Source: an uncultured Sulfuricurvum sp.
GTDB taxonomy: Bacteria > Campylobacterota > Campylobacteria > Campylobacterales > Sulfurimonadaceae
Direction: 5' to 3'
Length of the DNA: 64,000 nucleotides
NCBI GenBank assembly: GCA_903844635.1
Contig: CAIMUF010000032.1
Span: 109,871-173,870 of the forward strand
Shown here: one piece after another, positions 30,877 through 64,000 of the stretch
Layout of the letters: each line of letters starts with the position of its first letter
Position numbering within the stretch: position 1 is the first letter of the stretch
Translations under genes and position numbers: made by a program
The notes under the pieces: model-generated
Seen by the model: the letters and a program-made list of their open reading frames with translations, nothing else
Database searches by the model: none
Told to the model about the DNA's origin: nothing

Positions 30877-30905
30877 TTTTACACCTTTTTTAGATATTTG
30901 AATTT

Positions 30906-30986
30906 CCCACATTCTATGTGGGTAGCTTTAGGGGATTGCAAAGGACATATATGTCCTTACCAGCTAAATGAGCTTTGCTCATTTAG
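30906..30986. repeat. Three-hairpin structured element, copy 1 (81 nt)
   Basis: CCCACAT-TCT-ATGTGGG, AAGGACATATATGTCCTT, CTAAATGAGC-TTT-GCTCATTTAG; linker TAGCTTTAGGGG shared with copy 2. Confidence 0.85.
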
Positions 30987-30996
30987 GTGTTTAAGA

Positions 30997-31608
30997 TCAC
31001 AAGTTGATAAAATTTTGTAAAATTTTTAAGCCGTTATGATGGCTCTTTTCCGGATGCGGCTGAATACCCATTACGTTATCATGCGCGATTGCACTGGTAA
31101 AACGGTACCCATAAACACTCTCTCCGATGCTGTCTGCTTCATTGTCACACAAGGCGTGATAAGAATGAACGAAATAGAGATAATGGTCCTTGTCCAATCC
31201 TTCAAACAAAGGATGTTCTTTGGTAAACATCCTGTTCCATCCGATATGGGGGACTTTTAAAGGAGTATGAAAACGACTTGTATCAAACGCCACAACTCGT
31301 CCCTTAATAAGACCAAGCCCTTCATTGATTCCAAATTCTTCACTTGAGTCAAACAATAATTGCATTCCCAAACAAATGCCAAGAAGATATTTTCCGCTCA
31401 CGGCATATTCACGAACGGCTTCATTCATTCCACGGCTTTGCAGGTGTTCCATCGCATCCCCAAATGCACCAACACCCGGTAAAATCAGCTTGTCATACGT
31501 ACACAATTTAGCAGGGTCTGATTCCACCACTACTTTTTCACCAAGTAAATCAAATGCATTTTTTACGCTGGCAAGATTACCTATATTATAATCGACTATT
31601 CCTATCAA
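30997..31608 (-). CDS. hisH: Imidazole glycerol phosphate synthase glutaminase subunit
   Basis: MIGIVDYNIGNLASV, GICLGMQLLFDSSEE, GIQPHPEKSH. Confidence 0.97.
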   Translation of the reverse strand: MIGIVDYNIGNLASVKNAFDLLGEKVVVESDPAKLCTYDKLILPGVGAFGDAMEHLQSRGMNEAVREYAVSGKYLLGICLGMQLLFDSSEEFGINEGLGLIKGRVVAFDTSRFHTPLKVPHIGWNRMFTKEHPLFEGLDKDHYLYFVHSYHALCDNEADSIGESVYGYRFTSAIAHDNVMGIQPHPEKSHHNGLKILQNFINL

Positions 31609-61097: not shown

Positions 61098-61139
61098 TAT
61101 CAAACCTATAGTAAAATTGTAATAACTGCCTTTAAATCT

Positions 61140-61220
61140 CGAAAACTCCAGTTTTCGTAGCTTTAGGGGGATGTAAGGGACATTTGTCCCTGCCATTAAA
61201 AGGGCTTTGCTCATTTAATG
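61140..61220. repeat. Three-hairpin structured element, copy 2 (81 nt)
   Basis: CGAAAACT-CC-AGTTTTCG, AGGGACA-TT-TGTCCCT, CATTAAAAGGGC-TTT-GCTCATTTAATG; linker TAGCTTTAGGGG shared with copy 1. Confidence 0.85.
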
Positions 61221-61267
61221 CATAACATCAGTTAAATGTCACCAATTATATCTAAAAGAGCCAAACC

Positions 61268-63901: not shown

Positions 63902-64000
63902 GGCCAGGCGGCGACCTACGTTTCCACACCTGAAAGATGCAGTATTATGAGCGAAGAGGGTCTTAGCTTCCGGGTTCGGAATGGGACCGGGCGTTTCCCC
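63902..64000 (-). rRNA. 5S ribosomal RNA, partial (5' end beyond window)
   Basis: Reverse complement GGGGAAACGCCCGGTCCCATTCCGAACCCGGAAGCTAAG...GGTCGCCGCCTGGCCT matches 5S architecture. Confidence 0.93.

Follow-up and report, generated by a model that had tools for sequence, protein, structure and literature searches.

Structure and position of the window copies

The window, a 64,000-nt stretch of a contig from an uncultured Sulfuricurvum sp., carries two copies of a short element with three consecutive hairpins, one in the hisH-hisA junction, 27-29 nt ahead of the hisA start, and the other upstream of bioD (Table 1). The core runs from TCT (TTT in copy 1) through hairpin 1, an unpaired linker and hairpins 2 and 3 to a right end of approximately GYGTAACATCA. 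All three stems that an earlier note on this DNA had described in copy 1 were found in their places, as was its second copy (61140-61220), whose linker is identical; the equal 81-nt length that it gave for both elements reflects where the ends were set, and the cores measure 97 nt in copy 1 and 94 nt in copy 2. In copy 2, pairing within stem 3 is imperfect. No left end is recognisable in either window copy, both being too eroded, and only the right terminal repeat has been kept. The top strand of the copy 1 core is antisense to the his operon, and the hisH stop codon falls within this copy, the element's own TGA having taken its place. The window end cuts through a minus-strand 5S rRNA gene (63903-64000).

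Table 1. Parts of the two element copies in the window.
Feature	Coordinates	Strand	Basis and remarks
MITE copy 1 core: three hairpins and right end	30903-30999	+	71.8 bits, covariance model R1; left terminal-repeat arm unrecognisable
Copy 1 hairpin 1, CCCACAT/ATGTGGG	30906-30922	+	arms 30906-30912 with 30916-30922; sequence check, folding
Copy 1 linker TAGCTTTAGGGG, conserved	30923-30934	+	18 exact occurrences in genome
Copy 1 hairpin 2, AAGGACATATATGTCCTT	30941-30958	+	sequence check, folding
Copy 1 hairpin 3, CTAAATGAGC/GCTCATTTAG	30964-30986	+	arms 30964-30973 with 30977-30986; sequence check, folding
Copy 1 right terminal repeat, eroded	30988-30999	+	compared with GCGTAACATCAG; minus strand is the hisH stop TGA (30997-30999)
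MITE copy 2 core, upstream of bioD	61137-61230	+	89.6 bits, model R1; empty site in G005, G008, G002, G015
Copy 2 linker TAGCTTTAGGGG, conserved	61158-61169	+	sequence check, exact genome occurrences
Copy 2 right terminal repeat, GCATAACATCAG	61220-61231	+	one difference from family consensus
Copy 2 probable left target-duplication copy, GTAAAAT	61111-61117	+	empty-site comparison; empty site is TTAAAAT
Copy 2 probable right target-duplication copy, TTAAAT, eroded, one base shorter	61232-61237	+	empty-site comparison

With two mismatches allowed, GTAGCTTTAGGGG matched five times in the window against 0.77 matches expected. Dinucleotide shuffles of either copy fold less well than the original, whichever strand is taken (copy 1, z of -3.9 and -4.9; copy 2, -2.8 and -2.9). 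A window scan with filters off, using covariance model R1, which was built from 15 copies of the same genome including both window copies, ranked these two copies first (Table 1), the next site reaching 15.7 bits.

Distribution of the family

The element belongs to a dispersed family, as the earlier note had proposed, with dozens of copies among free-living Campylobacterota, and the search that it suggested with a covariance model returned further copies both in the window's own genome and in relatives. The exact occurrences of the linker in the own genome lie nearly always within the same three-hairpin arrangement, and the 30 covariance model hits there represent, by our count, 27 distinct places. 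Model hits were obtained in 26 of 41 genomes, the own genome included, and the element was present in 81 of 400 sampled Campylobacterales genomes, distributed over 20 of 87 genera and 11 families (families counted from the tabulated results). A 21-nt core pattern matched at least 120 stretches across GTDB; the titles among the matches listed name Sulfurimonas, Sulfuricurvum, Sulfurovum, Sulfurospirillum, Hydrogenimonas, unplaced Campylobacterota and one unplaced bacterium. Sulfuricurvum kujiense gave 20 hits. The plasmid collection yielded a single match, on the S. kujiense plasmid NC_014754, and the scanned phage collection none. Membership of an already described Rfam family, which had been raised as a possibility, was not borne out, since no Rfam family matches the element at its gathering score; an isrG match in locus L032 (26.7 bits) fell far under the cut-off and was rejected. 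A limited search of the open-access literature found no earlier description of the element.

Three own-genome copies (L014, L018 and L017) are longer; two of them share additional sequence, GGGTGAAAAGCG...TTTGGAACC, in a greatly lengthened hairpin 2, and in one hairpin 3 is extended. Tandem or closely successive pairs of copies occur at L391 (4919-5160) and on contig 208 of G384 (7348 and 7606).

Insertion sites and gene context

The earlier note had considered a cis-regulatory leader, and copy 1, given its proximity to hisA, could be a leader or attenuator of that gene. However, 21 of 25 Sulfuricurvum genomes have nothing inserted in the hisH-hisA junction; the insertion is present in three (the own genome, G002 and G007), and a fourth, G024, retains a scar (L107) in which the two element edges are left and the inside is deleted. 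Other copies sit beside unrelated genes, the hairpins of copy 1 are followed by no T run in the sequence, and relative to the his operon the core's top strand runs antisense. We therefore give a regulatory role at hisA very little credence.

The site orthologous to the bioD copy is empty in four relatives (Table 1), and G005 shows cleanly unoccupied sites for several further copies. At the G005 sites orthologous to L031 and L035 (Sulfuricurvum G000) and L087 (G022), other dispersed repeats occupy the same intergenic place, of a GTCATTCC...GGAATCC type and a TTCGACAGGCTCAGGG type.

Copies between tandem genes in the own genome are more often antisense (12:5, our count), a difference that is not significant. 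Among 58 copies with flanks in genome G027, in which orientation was scored by ribosome-binding site, start and open frame, 25 have a ribosome-binding site and start codon in sense just past the right end, versus 10 past the left end (p 0.011), and these G027 copies may form 5′ untranslated regions. There is no one orientation rule common to the copies. Scoring by the longest open frame in the 290-nt flanks of G027 was rejected as unreliable because long antisense frames dominate.

Terminal repeats and target duplication

Most intact core-bearing copies measure 116-143 nt, have no coding capacity and are bounded by terminal inverted repeats, CTGAYSTTACGC...GCGTAACATCAG. In the G027 element a left arm, CTGACGTTACGC-loop-GCGTAACGTCC, stands ahead of the core, and CTGAYGTTACGC at one terminus is repeated in inverted form as GCGTAACATCAG at the other. 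Flanks match at 0.64 for a length of 7 bp versus 0.26-0.37 for other lengths (62 pairs), and 55 repeat pairs show at most one mismatch in a 7-bp duplication, with the core present in most of these pairs. Six intact Sulfuricurvum copies (L283, L286, L288, L293, L065 and L088) carry CTGACCTTACGCAC or variants at the left and have an exact 7-bp duplication; in most other copies of this genus, including both in the window, the left arm is unrecognisable. The short length without coding capacity, the terminal inverted repeats, the fixed 7-bp duplication and the sites empty in relatives together characterise the element as a MITE. G027 also contains a second MITE of 269 bp, a near full-length foldback that shares the terminal repeats, CTGATGTTACGC, and has 7-bp duplications, in at least nine copies (for example L443 275-543, L444 363-631 and L448 2101-2369).

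These termini bear on the other origin that had been suggested, a non-autonomous REP or IS200/IS605-derived element. Such REP/BIME-like elements are likewise small, intergenic, hairpin-bearing and present in many copies, and their mover would be a Y1 (RAYT/TnpA) transposase acting on single-stranded DNA hairpins. The dispersal between genes, the hairpins, the GTAG that follows hairpin 1 and the Y1 genes present in some copy-rich relatives are all in keeping with this origin. However, Y1-dependent elements have no terminal repeats with duplication, the own genome has no Y1 gene (PF01797), nor has G015 with its 27 copies, and no copies were found beside the Y1 genes of relatives, where the flanking arrangement had been looked for (best 14.6 bits). 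Y1 transposition makes no target duplication, so the exact 7-bp duplication beside the terminal inverted repeats of intact copies speaks decisively against Y1 mobility, and we regard this origin as extremely improbable. What stands of the suggestion is that the element is mobile and non-autonomous; the GTAG at the linker start, read earlier as a sign of RAYT-associated REPs, is as far as tested a chance resemblance.

A candidate partner transposase

In the Sulfuricurvum genome G014, contig L465 breaks off within a transposase gene, and the C-terminal part, which surfaced in a DDE_Tnp_1 (PF01609) search, has its stop codon within CTGACCTTACGCAC, the left end of the MITE. The same search found no DDE_Tnp_1 in the own genome or in G027. 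Relatives of the transposase were recovered by protein search in 10 of the 400 genomes of the order. Complete insertion sequences measure 1099-1121 bp and have the terminal repeats CTGACCTTACGCAC, CTGATGTTACGCAG or a near variant; L471 and L472 are complete elements of approximately 1.1 kb with exact 7-bp duplications, L474 is flanked by an 8-bp repeat, and the flanks of L473 and L476 do not match. The transposases of L472 and L474 score 341.5 and 347.5 bits on the NCBIfam model IS701_2 (cut-off 250), and the terminal repeats of the MITE are identical with those of such IS701_2-type elements. Plasmid relatives from Polaromonas, Acinetobacter, Thiothrix and Cyanobacterium are bounded by CTGATGTTACGCA, in two cases with an exact 7-bp duplication, and the record of one close plasmid relative carries the annotation ISAba11 group; likeness to ISAba11 is judged here from the IS701_2 model and this one record. 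Elements with the same ends and a 7-bp duplication thus occur in Campylobacterota, Pseudomonadota and one cyanobacterium.

No IS701_2-type transposase gene was detected by protein search in the own genome, nor was the transposase detected in most MITE-carrying genomes. The MITE is present in 5 of the 10 genomes with the transposase versus 76 of the 390 others (p 0.03). At L479 in G064, which belongs to the genus of G027, lies a decayed IS701_2-type transposase that contains a stop codon and retains a single terminal repeat, CTGACGTTACGC; it is likely what is left of the partner in this MITE-rich lineage. No long repeat pair with a 7-bp duplication was found among the loci searched, the autonomous elements emerging only from the protein search. 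Because the core linker is absent from the insertion sequences found, the MITE appears better seen as a passenger using the partner's ends than as a simple deletion product, and common descent of the MITE and the insertion sequences is shown for the ends only.

We consider it very probable that the element is a MITE with IS701_2-type ends that is moved in trans, that its core does not come from an insertion sequence and that the window copies are fixed remnants. An IS701_2 (ISAba11-like) DDE transposase would recognise the two 12-14 nt terminal inverted repeats and move the MITE in trans, leaving a 7-bp A/T-rich target duplication on insertion. The MITE would have spread through many Campylobacterales lineages with its three-hairpin core of approximately 95 nt, which is not insertion-sequence-derived, and we infer that the transposase has been lost from, or is unassembled in, the window's genome. 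The window copies look like fossils because no transposase gene was detected and no left end is recognisable; both would be fixed remnants, the hisH-hisA copy now giving hisH its stop codon.

Covariation in the core

MITE interiors are usually viewed as dispensable filler between the ends. In this family the interior pairs consistently: in a 15-copy MAFFT alignment 92.2% of cells pair, with both-side changes in 56 cells versus 19.8 in shuffles, and among 97 distinct sequences 95.3% pair, with both-side changes in 496 cells versus 156. Sliding the latter set by 1 to 3 columns gives pairing of 40-46%, and the separate G027 subfamily follows the same covariation trend. The strong covariation, together with folding that beats shuffles, bears out the earlier proposal of a real structure with compensatory changes. 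Imperfect cells on the top strand are G:U rather than A:C by 22:5, 75:15 and 151:23 in three sets, the larger two of which were aligned by fitting to the model and may favour G:U; after removal of columns with a common wobble the ratios are 31:15 (G027) and 54:21 (larger set). One wobble position was found again in two lineages. Because G:U exceeds A:C, the top strand, as RNA or single-stranded DNA, would be the molecule that folds, and these data suggest that its folded form is under selection.

The same covariation could have arisen at the DNA level in an otherwise identical MITE if one palindrome arm were copied onto the other by template switching, with no selection on the fold. Copies do exchange whole stems, and the second MITE of G027 likewise retains long palindromes, but such repair predicts equal G:T and A:C on one strand, contrary to the counts above, and would leave the wobble shared by two lineages and the conservation of the unpaired linker to be explained otherwise. 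We hold palindrome repair to be a serious possibility, if on balance not the probable one. A more specific proposal is that the selected fold is a functional molecule, either RNA or single-stranded DNA exposed in replication or transposition, which is needed by the MITE or has been co-opted by its hosts. We put this forward tentatively, as rather unlikely. If true, it would make the element a fold-assisted or RNA-assisted DDE MITE and would account for the persistence, through 11 families, of a fixed linker and three hairpins that covary, with wobble mostly on one strand.

Comparison with known elements and implications

The MITE shares with IS701_2 or ISAba11-like elements the terminal repeats, CTGATGTTACGCA or CTGACCTTACGCAC, and the 7-bp A/T-rich duplication; unlike them it is gene-less and has a three-hairpin core that the insertion sequences found lack. 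The partner transposase is of a DDE type related to that of classical IS701, and matched the NCBIfam IS701 model under the cut-off. Classical members are 1400-1550 bp long with 4-bp duplications (PMC2266710), whereas the elements here are of approximately 1.1 kb with 7-bp duplications. Bacterial MITEs in general are likewise short and gene-less, with A/T-rich intergenic targets, terminal repeats and transcripts predicted to fold (PMC10969869), and QMITE2 of Coxiella has direct repeats of 7-9 bp (PMC10969869); by comparison, the interior of the element described here is a conserved multi-hairpin core covarying across 11 host families. We regard it as a MITE of IS701_2-type transposases that is unusual in its conserved, covarying interior.

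The interior kept here with compensatory changes, across an order and in hundreds of copies, has no relation to the partner insertion sequence, and this number of copies suffices for statistics and experiment on whether a folded MITE interior has a job. The finding also points to a 7-bp-duplicating group within what databases call IS701, and to the known repeats of Sulfuricurvum, Sulfurimonas, Sulfurovum, Hydrogenimonas and their relatives it adds a family by which stop codons and intergenic regions are altered.
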